From Duganella sp. Root336D2 (lineage in GTDB: Bacteria > Pseudomonadota > Gammaproteobacteria > Burkholderiales > Burkholderiaceae_D): a stretch of DNA of 64,000 nt. Shown piece after piece: positions 8,141-14,232 of the stretch (its first letter is position 1; each line of letters opens with the position of its first letter). Both the position numbers and the translations under genes were made by a program. Location of the stretch: contig NZ_LMDB01000037.1 in the NCBI RefSeq assembly GCF_001425005.1, forward strand, positions 191,269 to 255,268, read 5' to 3'. Under the pieces are notes generated by a model. It worked only from the letters and a program-made list of their open reading frames with translations. It had not been told where the DNA came from and searched no databases.

Positions 8141-8341
8141 ATGGATGCAATGAGCATTGCAAGGCTGGCAACGACAATGGCCGATACGAGCAATCGTACC
8201 GAGATCGGTTACGCCGTATTGAAAAAAGCACAAGACGTGCAAGCCTCCAGCGCCCAAGCCTTGATCGAAGCGATCCCGCCAGCGCCGGCAGCGGCCAGCC
8301 TGCCATCCCATCTCGGCCAGAACATCAATACCACCGCCTGA
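8141..8341 (+). CDS. YjfB-family small protein
   Basis: The 66-residue product (begins MDAMSIARLATTMADTSNR, with YAVLKKAQDVQ in the middle) matches the YjfB family of short helical proteins, sometimes called putative motility proteins. GGGAGA lies 6 bp upstream of the ATG. It has its own terminator just downstream and stands apart from mobB by 52 bp. Function is not established. Confidence 0.7.
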   Translation: MDAMSIARLATTMADTSNRTEIGYAVLKKAQDVQASSAQALIEAIPPAPAAASLPSHLGQNINTTA

Positions 8342-8449: not shown

Positions 8450-8713
8450 ATGAAAAACCGTCAAGCCCTGATCGCCGCCGCCCTGGCCACTGCCTGCGCC
8501 ACCGCCACCACCGTCGCCACCGCAGCCCAGGAAAAGCCAGCGGAACAGGAAAAGTGCTACGGCATCGCCAAGGCCGGCCAGAATGACTGCGCTACCGGCA
8601 CCCACGGCTGCTCCAACCAGGCCAAGACCGACAATTTGGCAGGCGAATGGAAACTGGTCGCCAAAGGCACTTGCGAAAAAGCCGGCGGCAAGACCAGCGC
8701 ACCTGCCAAATAA
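8450..8713 (+). CDS. BufA1-like bufferin precursor (DUF2282)
   Basis: The 87-residue precursor has a signal peptide (residues 1-26, ending TVATAAQ) and four cysteines in the DUF2282 pattern EKCYG, NDC, HGC and GTCEK. DUF2282 proteins are now known as bufferins: exported peptides whose cysteines are modified by a DUF692 (MNIO) enzyme working with a DUF2063 partner, giving copper-binding metallophores. The gene lies 3 bp upstream of a protein carrying both those domains, which supports the assignment. GAGGAG precedes the start. No DoxX-type bufD is adjacent. Confidence 0.88.
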
Positions 8714-8716
8714 ACC

Positions 8717-10327
8717 ATGACGCCACATGCCGCGGCCCATGGGGTTGGCATTGGATTGCGGGCACCGCATTACCGCCAATTCCTTGAGCAGCGGCCGCGC
8801 GCCGCCTGGCTCGAAGTCCACACGGAGAACTACCTCGACCAGGCCGGCGGCGACTTCCACGTATTGCAGGAGTTGAGGCGCGACTACGCGCTCAGCCTGC
8901 ACGGCGTTGGCCTTGGCCTTGGTTCCGCACGCGGCTTCAGCACCGGCCACCTCACACGCATCGCCAGCCTGGCCCAGCGCATACAGCCCGCGCTCATCTC
9001 CGAGCACCTGTGCTGGGGCGCCGTCTTCGACCGCCACCTGAACGACCTGCTGCCGCTGGCGCTGAACCACGCCGCGCTCGACTTGCTGGAAGAGCGGGTA
9101 GGGCGCATGCAGGACGCGCTTGGCCGCACCATCCTGCTCGAAAACGTCTCCAGCTTCGTGCGCTTCGCCGACGACGCCATGAGCGAAGCCGAATTCCTCG
9201 CCGCCCTGGCAGGCCGCACCGGCTGCGGCCTGCTGCTCGACGTGAACAACCTCTACGTCAACCAGTGCAACCACGAAGAGGACGCCATGGCAGCGCTGGC
9301 GGCAATCACCCCCGGCACGGTCGGAGAAATCCACCTCGCCGGCCACCTCGTCACCCCCGATGCCGTAGTCGACCACCACGGCGCAGCCGTCGCCGATCCC
9401 GTCTGGCGCCTGTACGAAGCAGCGCTGGCCCGCTTCGGCGCCGTCCCCACGCTGGTCGAATGGGACACCGACATCCCGTCCCTGGAAGTCCTGCTCGGCG
9501 AAGCCGCCAAAGCCGCCACCATCGCCACCGGCTTCCCCCCAGCAAATGTCCACCCCGGGGTCAGGAACGAAAGTGGACATTTTCCCCGCGGCAGCGAAGA
9601 CGCGCTGGCCGCGCAACAGCAGTCATTTGCCGAGGCCTTGTTCGCCCCCGCCGCCGAGGCAGCCCTTCAGCTCAGGCACGCGGAACGATTCGCCCTATAC
9701 CGGGGCAACCTGACGTCGACCTGGACCAAGGCCCTGGTCGCCGCCTACCCCGTCATCGCCCAACTGGTCGGCGAGGAATTCTTCACCGGCCTGTCGCGCG
9801 AATACGGCCGCGCCCACCCCTCTGACAGCGGCGACCTGAACCGATTCGGCGCCCACCTGGAATCCTTCCTGCGCAGCTTCGAGCACGCCAAAGACCTGCC
9901 CTACCTGCCCGACATGGCCCGCCTGGAATGGCAACTGCACCGCATCCACTACGCGCGGCACGAGCTGGCGCTGCAAGCGCAGGACATCAATCCGCACACC
10001 GTGGAAGAGCAAAGTTTCCCCTGGCAGCCCACAGCCCGGCTCTTCGAGTCGGCATGGGCCGTCGTGCCCCTCTGGCTCGCTCACCAGGGCATGGAATTCC
10101 CGCAAAAGATGGATGAGCCAAGCCGCGCACTGCTCAGCCGCCCCGCCTGGACAGCCCAGGTCGCGCCGCAGCAAGCAGCGCAATTCGCGGCGCTGCAGGA
10201 ACTAAAAGAAGGGAAAACATTCGGCGCCGCACTAGACGCCGCTTTTGCGCTGGATGAAAACTTCGATCTGGCCGCCAGCCTGCAGCAATGGCTGCAGCAG
10301 CAAATCCTAGTCAAACGCCCGCATTAA
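8717..10327 (+). CDS. Fused BufB-BufC: DUF692 (MNIO) plus DUF2063
   Basis: One 536-residue frame holds two proteins that are usually separate. Residues 1-275 are a DUF692 TIM barrel with the expected blocks [43 protein letters not shown] and VEWDTDIPS, which supply the iron ligands of MNIO enzymes. Residues about 295-535 are DUF2063, the partner that recognises the precursor ([39 protein letters not shown]). Between them, residues 276-289 are encoded by a 39 bp palindromic repeat also found between genes elsewhere in this window. The pair would modify cysteines of the upstream bufferin. Whether the fusion is natural in this lineage or came from the repeat cannot be told here. Confidence 0.85.
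9544..9582. repeat. 39 bp GTCCAC/GTGGAC palindromic repeat inside bufBC
   Basis: AAATGTCCAC (9544-9553) and GTGGACATTT (9573-9582) are perfect 10 bp inverted ends around a 19 bp core containing GGGGTCAGGAACGAA. In reverse orientation it matches the 13886-13924 element at 29 of 33 central positions. It is 13 codons long, so it does not change the frame, and it falls exactly between the DUF692 and DUF2063 domains. Confidence 0.85.
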
Positions 10328-12301: not shown

Positions 12302-12426
12302 GTAAAGCTCCCTCGTTTGAAAGTGATGTCTGAATTCTAACGCCAATGCGACTCGCCCTGCCGAGGCCTACAAAATCGGGATATTCTGCCGTTAATGAAT
12401 ACATTGAAGTAATAGGCCTGTCTTCC

Positions 12427-13623
12427 ATGCTAAGCAAACGATTGACCATTCATGCCCTCGCGCTGCCGCTGCTTGCCGCCTTATGCGGCTCGTTGCGCGC
12501 CGCCGAACTGGGCGAGATCAAGGTCAATTCCCACGTTGGCCAGCAGCTTTCGGCGGATATTGAACTGGTCGACCTGACGGCGGCCGACCTGGCCGATGTG
12601 CAGGCAAAGCTGGCAAATCCAGACGTCTTTAAAGGCGCCAACGTGGCGATGCCGCCCGCGCTCAGCGGGCTGTATATTTCTATCGCCAGGCGCGATAACA
12701 AGCGCTTCGTGCACTTGACCACGCTGCAGCCGGTGCATGCCGATGCTTTGCACTTGTTCCTGGAGTTGAATAGTGGAGGACGGCAGATCATCCGCGCTGC
12801 CTCGATCTGGCTGACGCCGGAGCCGCCAGGGCAGCGGACAGTCAATCAAGCTGCGACGCCGGCTGCGGAGCCAATGCCTGCTGTTGCTGCTGCTGTTGCT
12901 GCGAAACCCGTCGTGCCGGATAACGGCGAGGCCGGATTGAGCGAGGCGGCGCAACGCGCCTTCGCGCACCGCCAGCAAGTCGCCTTGGCGAAGGCCCAGC
13001 AGCAGGCCGCCAATCCGGCACCGCAGGCGGCACCGCTTCCTGCGCCGAAGGCCGAGGCGAGCCGCGCGACCGAGGCGCCGCCGCCTTCCCGCAAGCCGAC
13101 CGCAAAGCCCGCAGCCTCACCTGCGCCAATTGCCACTCCGCCGGCCAGCGCATCTGCCCAATCCTGCGCACCTGCCAAAGTGGTAGAGGCCCAAATCCGG
13201 CAATGCGAAGCCATGACAAGCAAACTGGCTGATATCGAAAGCAAAGTGCAGCGCCTGCAGACTGCCGTGGTGGCGCCCGCCGCCGTTGCGGCTGTCGCCA
13301 GCGCCACACCTGGGCCGGCGCCCGTACCCAAAACCGAAGCGGTTCCAGCGCCGGCCAAGCCAGGCGCAGCACCCGGCAAACCCGGCGCGACTCCAGTCAA
13401 GCCAGGTGTCGCCGCGGACCTGGCGGCCAACCCACGCAGCCGGCTGATGATGATTGCAGGTGGCGTGCTCGCCGGCCTGGCAGCACTTGCAGGCCTGATC
13501 TACTTCCTGCGCAAACGCCAGGCGAAGGGTCCGTTAAAGATCTGGCAATCCTTCCGCAGCAAGGGGAGTACGGAAGATGATGTGCCAGTCCTGGAAGACG
13601 CGGTGGAGGTTGCTGCACACTAG
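12427..13623 (+). CDS. FimV-like inner-membrane protein
   Basis: Starting at ATG 12427 the product has 398 residues: a signal peptide (LTIHALALPLLAALCGSLRA), a FimV N-terminal domain (about 25-135, with GEIKVNSHVGQQLSADIELV), a long Ala/Pro/Lys-rich region with a short coiled coil near 255-275, and a membrane segment near the C-terminus (MMIAGGVLAGLAALAGLIYF). FimV/HubP-type proteins help place polar pili and flagella, but this one is short and lacks a visible C-terminal TPR region. The start at 12346 upstream would spoil the signal peptide. Confidence 0.78.
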   Translation: MLSKRLTIHALALPLLAALCGSLRAAELGEIKVNSHVGQQLSADIELVDLTAADLADVQAKLANPDVFKGANVAMPPALSGLYISIARRDNKRFVHLTTLQPVHADALHLFLELNSGGRQIIRAASIWLTPEPPGQRTVNQAATPAAEPMPAVAAAVAAKPVVPDNGEAGLSEAAQRAFAHRQQVALAKAQQQAANPAPQAAPLPAPKAEASRATEAPPPSRKPTAKPAASPAPIATPPASASAQSCAPAKVVEAQIRQCEAMTSKLADIESKVQRLQTAVVAPAAVAAVASATPGPAPVPKTEAVPAPAKPGAAPGKPGATPVKPGVAADLAANPRSRLMMIAGGVLAGLAALAGLIYFLRKRQAKGPLKIWQSFRSKGSTEDDVPVLEDAVEVAAH

Positions 13624-13682: not shown

Positions 13683-13889
13683 ACACGGACCGGGTTCTGC
13701 CGCAGTCACCACCGATAGCGTGACGCGAACCGCAGAGCGACGTTGATGAAACGACCCCTTCCGGAAGCAGTTCATAGCCGACTGAGGCGATCTGAACGCC
13801 GGGTGCAACCGGCGCTGAGGCGACACCAGGAGATACCTGGTGCTCGCCCCTCCCAATTCCAAGGCGCCCCAAGCGGGCGCCTTTGTTTT
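13683..13889 (+). ncRNA. Predicted structured small RNA, about 207 nt, family unknown
   Basis: A near-consensus promoter, about 200 nt without a credible reading frame, and a terminator mark this as an RNA gene. Visible stems are: I, GGTTC/GAACC (13693-13697, 13727-13731) enclosing GTCAC/GTGAC; II, GTTCA/TGAAC (13770-13774, 13793-13797) with inner GCC/GGC; III, GCCGG/CCGGC (13798-13802, 13809-13813); IV, CACCAGG/CCTGGTG (13824-13830, 13836-13842) extended by GGCG/CGCC; then the terminator. It does not show the SRP, RNase P, tmRNA or common riboswitch signatures, and a 6S-like closing stem is not evident. The 3' end was set at the last T of the terminator. Confidence 0.62.
13861..13889 (+). 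terminator. Terminator of the predicted small RNA
   Basis: AAGGCGCCC (13861-13869) and GGGCGCCTT (13875-13883) pair around CAAGC, followed by TGTTTTG. The T-rich side is only on the plus strand, which fixes the direction of the RNA. Confidence 0.82.
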
Positions 13890-13924
13890 GTCCGCATTCG
13901 TTCCTGACCCCAAGGTGGACAAAA
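13886..13924. repeat. 39 bp GTCCAC-type palindromic repeat between genes
   Basis: The 39 bp element has TTTTGTCC/GGACAAAA ends and the core TTCGTTCCTGACCCC. Its central 33 bp match the reverse complement of the element inside bufBC at 29 positions. Its left end overlaps the T-run of the small-RNA terminator, and its right end abuts the fliT terminator. Confidence 0.8.
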
Positions 13925-13965: not shown

Positions 13966-14232
13966 TCAGCCGTTCAGGCGATCCTGCCAGGCATCGGTCA
14001 CGTCGCGGATGGCGCGGTCGTTGGCCATGATCTGTTTCAGCAGTTCAATCTTGCGCTGGCGGGCATCGCCCTGCAGCGGAGCCGCACCACCCATCAGGGC
14101 TACCGAAGTCGCTGCGCACTGGTTTTCCATGCGGTCGAGCGAATCCCAGTCGCTGGCTTGCGCGGCGCCTACCATCTGGCTGGTCAAACCGGCAATTTTT
14201 TCGTAGGTAGCGAGAACTTGGGTCGAGGACAT
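13966..14232 (-). CDS. FliT-like flagellar export chaperone
   Basis: The 88-residue, all-helical product (YEKIAGLTSQMVGAAQASDWDSLDRME, continued by a second helical stretch with RQRKIELLKQIMANDRAIRD) resembles FliT-type proteins, which bind the filament cap protein FliD before export. The pattern of an aromatic/leucine helix, an acidic W-D-L-E turn, then basic helices fits FliT. No flagellar operon is nearby, so this is a stand-alone gene with its own terminator. Confidence in the family is moderate because the protein is small. Confidence 0.65.
   Translation of the reverse strand: MSSTQVLATYEKIAGLTSQMVGAAQASDWDSLDRMENQCAATSVALMGGAAPLQGDARQRKIELLKQIMANDRAIRDVTDAWQDRLNG

Follow-up and report, generated by a model that had tools for sequence, protein, structure and literature searches.

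A 64,000-nucleotide stretch of the genome of Duganella sp. Root336D2 (contig NZ_LMDB01000037.1, positions 191,269 to 255,268 of the forward strand; this whole stretch is called the window below) contains a gene, bufBC, in which the MNIO maturase BufB and its partner BufC are encoded together, and a short palindrome lies between the two domains. This raises the question of whether the arrival of the palindrome created the fusion, as the initial annotation of this DNA had proposed as one possibility, or whether it entered a protein that was already fused and, in that case, how it came to be there and how it has behaved since.

Profile searches upheld the reading of BufB and BufC in one 536-residue frame (Table 1). 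The protein matches PF05114 over residues 9-270 (320 bits against a cut-off of 25, Pfam), passes the curated BufB model NF050167 (345.4 bits against a cut-off of 310, NCBIfam) and matches PF09836/DUF2063 over residues 300-385 (68.2 bits against a cut-off of 27.2, Pfam). The HvfC model NF050145 covers residues 300-532 at 43 bits, which is under its cut-off of 142, and the C-terminal region may be of the RRE type by analogy with HvfC. The BufB domain is related to the solved MNIO chains 3bww, 8hci, 7dz9, 7fc0 and 7tcr, and the His, Asp and Glu residues H62, H97, E142, D175, H206, H210, D219, H221 and E248, candidates for the iron site, are invariant across 35 aligned fused proteins.

The open reading frames of the window place the start of the fused gene 3 nt past the stop codon of bufA. 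The bufA product matches PF10048 (DUF2282; 70.4 bits, cut-off 22.4, Pfam) and, as read directly from the sequence, has four cysteines behind a signal-peptide-like N-terminal segment; an assignment to the BufA2 subtype was rejected, the NCBIfam BufA2 score (29.4 bits) being under the cut-off of 60. Of the 80 loci fetched, 79 have a bufA homologue upstream of the fused gene, at a median distance of 21 nt (range -4 to 369); in the last, L112, the homologue extends over the start assigned to bufBC. The profile scan of the neighbourhood found MobB and a YjfB-like ORF upstream and DUF883, S4-domain and fumarase-like genes downstream on the opposite strand, with no DoxX or sigma-factor gene among the scanned neighbours. 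Given these neighbours, bufA-bufBC looks like a two-gene operon, around which the gene order is conserved in L034, G009, G006 and P. violaceinigra, within the extent of the fetched stretches. The locus is a minimal bufferin operon, bufA-bufBC, with BufB and BufC in one polypeptide. A small ORF upstream of the operon (8141-8341) matches PF14070 (YjfB_motility), and the window's genome also has a separate second BufB-like gene (G000:C7:4416-5243), 41% identical to the fused one.

Table 1. Features of the bufA-bufBC locus and the two palindromic repeats, in positions of the window.
Feature	Position	Strand	Description
bufA precursor gene	8450..8713	+	87 aa; DUF2282/Buf1 type; PF10048
bufBC fused gene	8717..10327	+	536 aa, ATG start; MNIO maturase BufB + DUF2063-type partner BufC
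BufB/MNIO domain, residues 9-270	8741..9526	+	PF05114 + NF050167
Inter-domain linker, about residues 271-299	9527..9613	+	hypervariable in the family (alignments)
REP element in frame within the linker, residues 277-289	9544..9582	+	TGTCC..GGACA arms at 9547-9579
DUF2063 domain, residues 300-385	9614..9871	+	PF09836
C-terminal part, residues 386-532	9872..10312	+	possibly RRE-type, by analogy with HvfC
Intergenic REP, same family, inverted	13886..13924	-	between genes 12346-13623 and 13966-14232

MbnBC, TglHI and HvfBC are two-protein MNIO systems; like BufBC they combine an MNIO enzyme with a partner, whereas they use two polypeptides and BufBC uses one. The Buf1 clusters BufA-BufB-BufC, as they appear in passages of PMC12452194, share with the present locus a DUF2282 precursor, an MNIO enzyme and a DUF2063-type partner, adjacent and in one direction, but in the window's locus BufB and BufC form one chain and the scanned neighbours include neither a DoxX nor a sigma-factor gene. 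Other passages of that paper cover partner and fusion types of MNIO clusters, and a passage of PMC12710340 states that DUF2063-associated RREs are often paired with DUF2282 precursors. Passages of the open-licence PMC literature, those of PMC12452194 included, yielded no report of a BufB-BufC fusion, and among open-licence PMC papers BufB and BufC occur together as whole words only in PMC12452194.

The fusion itself was surveyed with each genome counted once (G016 of the relatives survey is the genome of L067, P. violacea). The relatives survey covered 60 genomes, 36 from the same genus and 24 from other families of the order. Thirty-five of the 36 same-genus relatives carry the fused gene: 30 gave one match spanning almost the full query within a single open frame, and the other five gave two matches in one frame, which were confirmed as fused on the fetched loci. 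In the remaining one, G002, the best match is a 42%-identical BufB-like gene. Thirteen of the 24 genomes from other families of the order have a match, and going by the match listing none of the 13 is fused. The family sample, in which the window's genome is one of 79, gave a match (E at most 1e-70) in 37 genomes, of which 24 are fused, 12 have a BufB frame of only 283-360 aa and one lies at a contig edge. Twenty more loci were fetched (six from the relatives survey and 14 from the family sample), and all 20 are fused. The set of 80 loci was taken as the best of 156 that matched patterns drawn from the protein of the window, which favours close, fused relatives; its genes are single frames (79 full, L110 cut by a contig end) and come from Massilia, Duganella, Pseudoduganella, Rugamonas, Janthinobacterium and further relatives. 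To judge from these sequences, the fusion appears to be old and widespread in the Massilia/Duganella/Janthinobacterium family and not peculiar to the window's genome. Within the single chain, we infer, the precursor is recognised by BufC and handed on to BufB; BufC would bind the N-terminal region of the precursor and present its cysteines to the BufB iron site. A widespread single-chain BufBC that works in this way would be a natural one-protein MNIO system for studies of structure and mechanism. As a separate observation, fused bufBC was also found in MAGs labelled Bifidobacterium breve (L101) and Acidobacteria (L112); these labels are possibly binning or labelling errors, and in the tree L101 groups among Oxalobacteraceae while L112 stands on a long branch.

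The linker does contain the 39-nt palindrome that had been described from the letters alone (AAATGTCCACCCCGGGGTCAGGAACGAAAGTGGACATTT, 9544-9582), but it encodes residues 277-289 and not 276-289. The 39 nt equal 13 codons in frame, as the initial annotation had pointed out, and five of the six frames are open, including all three forward ones, so that the element can be translated without a stop. Its mobile-like relative between genes was likewise recovered, at 13889-13921, in inverted orientation and 88% alike over 33 nt. A 15-nt core with at most two mismatches occurs twice in the window against 0.14 expected. Throughout the window's genome (G000; 6.58 Mb, 39 contigs), a 14-nt core with at most one mismatch is found at 34 places against five for a reversed-pattern control, and the 31-nt arm-and-core pattern with at most two mismatches at 41 places against none for the control. 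The copies stand as singlets and as inverted doublets (e.g. L120/L121, L126/L143, L132, L139 and L140); L134, in which the core matches and the paired arms are absent, was rejected as a REP. The linker palindrome is a REP element of a dispersed REP/REPIN population. A 31-mer identical to it lies about 12 kb away (G000:C37:188848-188878), and among the 41 listed copies the CCCC variant is common only to these two.

The position of the linker copy within a gene sets it apart from the rest of this population. In a coding test on 42 distinct REP copies from 40 fetched loci, with bufBC excluded from the training genes, only the bufBC copy is bounded on both sides by codon usage like that of coding sequence; the other 41 show no convincing coding frame, and for 11 of the 42 no frame runs through the copy with 30 open codons on either side. 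The linker copy thus departs from the extragenic position. REP/REPIN and RAYT systems, in the passages of PMC3116915, PMC8266576 and PMC8049555 that describe them, likewise consist of short dispersed palindromes with inverted doublets, and related repeats flank HuH-motif Y1 transposase genes, which here is the case in relatives; the present case differs in that the linker copy is intragenic and that the window's genome shows only fragments of the nearest transposase type. A passage of PMC8049555 regards REP singlets as decaying remnants of REPINs. REPs inside ORFs and the in-frame palindromes of Rickettsia are described in passages of PMC3733652. The linker REP would be akin to these coding palindromes in that it is a palindromic repeat translated in frame, the likeness being one of in-frame mode and not of sequence family; different here is that one and the same bufBC linker holds differing REP subtypes among species, each present in the host's pool.

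We then compared the linkers of 92 distinct fused proteins (from 110 sequences, 18 of them duplicates). The segment corresponding to residues 267-299 ranges from 18 to 62 aa, with a median of 32.5. A pattern search of the linker DNA found a REP-like palindrome in six of the 92 (the check covered 15 of the 24 fused genomes of the family sample): in the window, in G009 (Duganella sp. CF458), in P. violaceinigra (G063), in the Pseudoduganella MAG G006, in G022 (Massilia sp. BJB1822, L010) and in G065 (P. violacea, L067). Among the 20 further loci, only P. violacea and P. violaceinigra, both already counted, have linker REPs. The fused orthologues without the repeat that the initial annotation had proposed to look for are therefore plentiful. 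That annotation had also named family-wide fusion with unrelated linkers as the finding that would make the repeat a later, minor addition, and the result comes close to this, fusion without the repeat being usual among the orthologues checked. Read from these sequences, the fusion appears to be older than the linker REP.

The P. violacea linker contains two in-frame REPs of different subtypes; relative to the 93%-identical G022, it has gained the second REP together with about 25 more codons, which is the clearest single gain in the set. No REP is present in the linker of L034 (G061), whose length equals that of the window's linker, or in that of L257 (G153), an 81% identical relative whose linker is one residue longer. 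It is possible that the repeat lengthened an existing linker, as had also been suggested; these two REP-less close relatives, given their linker lengths, showed no empty site, so that insertion into the linker along the window's own line is a step that we infer. Two other candidates were rejected as linker REPs: a perfect palindrome in L025, which occurs as a single exact copy in its genome and reflects Ala/Pro codons, and a loose-pattern match in L215, which lacks the paired arms. In a tree built without the linker columns, the six REP bearers and the REP-less L034 form one seven-row set (SH-aLRT 81) that takes two changes, and a tree in which the G022/P. violacea pair is placed elsewhere is not rejected (p-AU 0.483). 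With G153 added, three changes are needed on both small trees, and a smaller protein tree gives no resolved grouping for the G022/P. violacea pair. These trees are compatible with one origin of the linker REP as well as with two.

The linker REPs were next set against the REP pools of their own genomes, the lists for G063, G006 and G022 being partial, that is, the distinct forms among the matches listed. In G000, G006 and G022, and for the second of the two REPs in G065, the genome contains a further exact copy of the linker 31-mer; for the other G065 REP, for G009 and for G063, the nearest own-genome copy among those listed has one, three and five mismatches, respectively. Exact matches also cross between genomes: a G065 copy equals the G022 linker REP, and a G022 copy equals the first linker REP of G065. 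The G009 linker REP is equally near the G000 and G063 pools (three mismatches), and that of G063 is nearer the G000 pool (four mismatches) than its own (five), so that, among the listed copies, the linker REP is clearly closest to its own pool in G000 and G006 alone. By subtype, the linker REP is ACCCC in G006, G022 and G065 and GGAA in G000, G009 and G063, and the pools agree. Several related species thus carry differing REP subtypes in the same linker, and each subtype is found elsewhere in its own genome. The REP-less G061 (L034) has one clear REP (one mismatch) among nine loose matches (control two), and the REP-less G153 has eight loose matches (control one) that are decayed forms at best. 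A linker REP is present along with a pool in six of six cases and absent with next to none in two of two, counts from related species to which no probability is attached, and the contrast is thin because the pool of the REP-bearing G009 is itself small (six places at up to two mismatches, the linker included). The evidence that the linker REP turns over in step with the genome's pool is suggestive but thin.

Y1-transposase genes (PF01797) number five in the window's genome and 20 in five relatives. Those flanked by REPs have HuH motifs and a Pfam-confirmed Y1 domain. L187 in G065 (P. violacea) has REPs on both sides that are identical to the second bufBC-linker REP of the same genome; L183 in G022 has REPs of an ACCCC-like type on both sides, 1 nt shorter than the linker form, L195 in G009 has REPs of a GGAAC type on both sides, 2 nt shorter than the linker form, and L196 in G063 has a REP of a GGAAG type on one side only. 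No such REP pair was found by the pattern used at the remaining transposase loci of the window's genome and the five relatives. In the transposase tree L195 and L196 form one clade (SH-aLRT 100) and L183 and L187 another (SH-aLRT 99), and the clades follow the REP type. None of the five Y1-transposase genes of the window's genome is flanked by a REP pair, and a search of that genome with the L195 protein returned two fragments (73% and 57% identical) at C12:581688-582150 (locus L254), with one REP directly beside them. As only fragments of this RAYT-like type turned up there, the REP pool of the window's genome may now lack its transposase and may have been orphaned. The related species could serve as natural replicates for reading the types of RAYT, REP and linker side by side.

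Taken together, the account that is very probably correct is that of an old BufBC fusion with a tolerant linker, where the REP arrived later as a passenger at a permissive site and did not cause the fusion. The fusion would have come first and become widespread in the family, with a flexible, sequence-tolerant linker; a REP of the kind copied by RAYT transposases would then have entered the linker in a small Pseudoduganella/Duganella group, presumably through RAYT-mediated copying or recombination between REPs, and the linker would have tolerated the 13 REP-coded residues. As the REPs of the genome changed, the copy in the linker seems since to have been replaced, renewed or lost; it is probably a late arrival, carried as a passenger by a permissive linker and turning over with the genome's REPs. 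A stronger form of this, in which the BufBC linker is repeatedly overwritten by the host's current REP subtype, through conversion or re-insertion, and loses it when the pool or the RAYT dies, is put forward only tentatively. If true, part of the sequence of a conserved enzyme would be set by a mobile-element population and would evolve in concert with a genome-wide repeat. The linker would be a case of REPs colonising, and possibly turning over inside, coding sequence. As a passenger the REP belongs to a known kind, though it sits in an unusual place; the fusion, useful as it is, is common across the family.

A possible but rather doubtful alternative is that the linker REP goes back to one old insertion, passed on by plain vertical descent with neutral divergence and lost in L034 and L257. 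The REPs of all six orthologues do share the same frame, orientation and place, their bearers fall in the single seven-row set, and between REP-bearing orthologues the element differs at 4-10 of 31 positions (at one of 31 for the L010/L067 pair), which is not above the divergence at fourfold sites, 29-44% for the pairs other than L010/L067. However, plain descent does not sit well with linker subtypes that go with the genome's pool (the ACCCC and GGAA groups) or with the identical copies elsewhere in the same genome, nor with the comparison of the window and L034, in which 17 of the 31 REP-aligned positions differ against 29% of the fourfold sites.

Several independent RAYT-driven insertions into the same tolerant linker in different species would explain why the second REP of P. 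violacea is of another subtype and absent from L010, and why L034 and L257 are without a REP amid REP-bearing sisters. It would, however, take coincidence or selection for each insertion to reach the same spot in the same frame, and no target site was identified, so we regard a history made up of such insertions as somewhat unlikely.

It is very unlikely that the palindrome has been kept for a function, whether as a peptide spacer for catalysis or as an mRNA hairpin at which translation pauses between the domains. A 10-bp stem is possible, and the linker REP persists in G009 and G006, whose downstream intergenic slot contains no REP by the core pattern used. However, an unusually stable RNA structure was rejected on folding against shuffled sequences (z 1.04; 174 of the 200 shuffles were as stable or more so), the palindrome is absent from 86 of the 92 distinct fused proteins, and the encoded peptide is only partly alike between species. 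The proposal that the arrival of the palindrome joined adjacent bufB and bufC genes, attractive for its place between the domains and its whole number of codons, can hardly be right, as REP-less fusion is the rule among the genes checked and REP linkers are one or two small tip groups in a wholly fused tree.

The downstream intergenic slot (window 13886-13924) holds an inverted REP pair in P. violaceinigra (L250 2419-2500) and a single REP in the window, and the fate of one REPIN could be followed there across these species.
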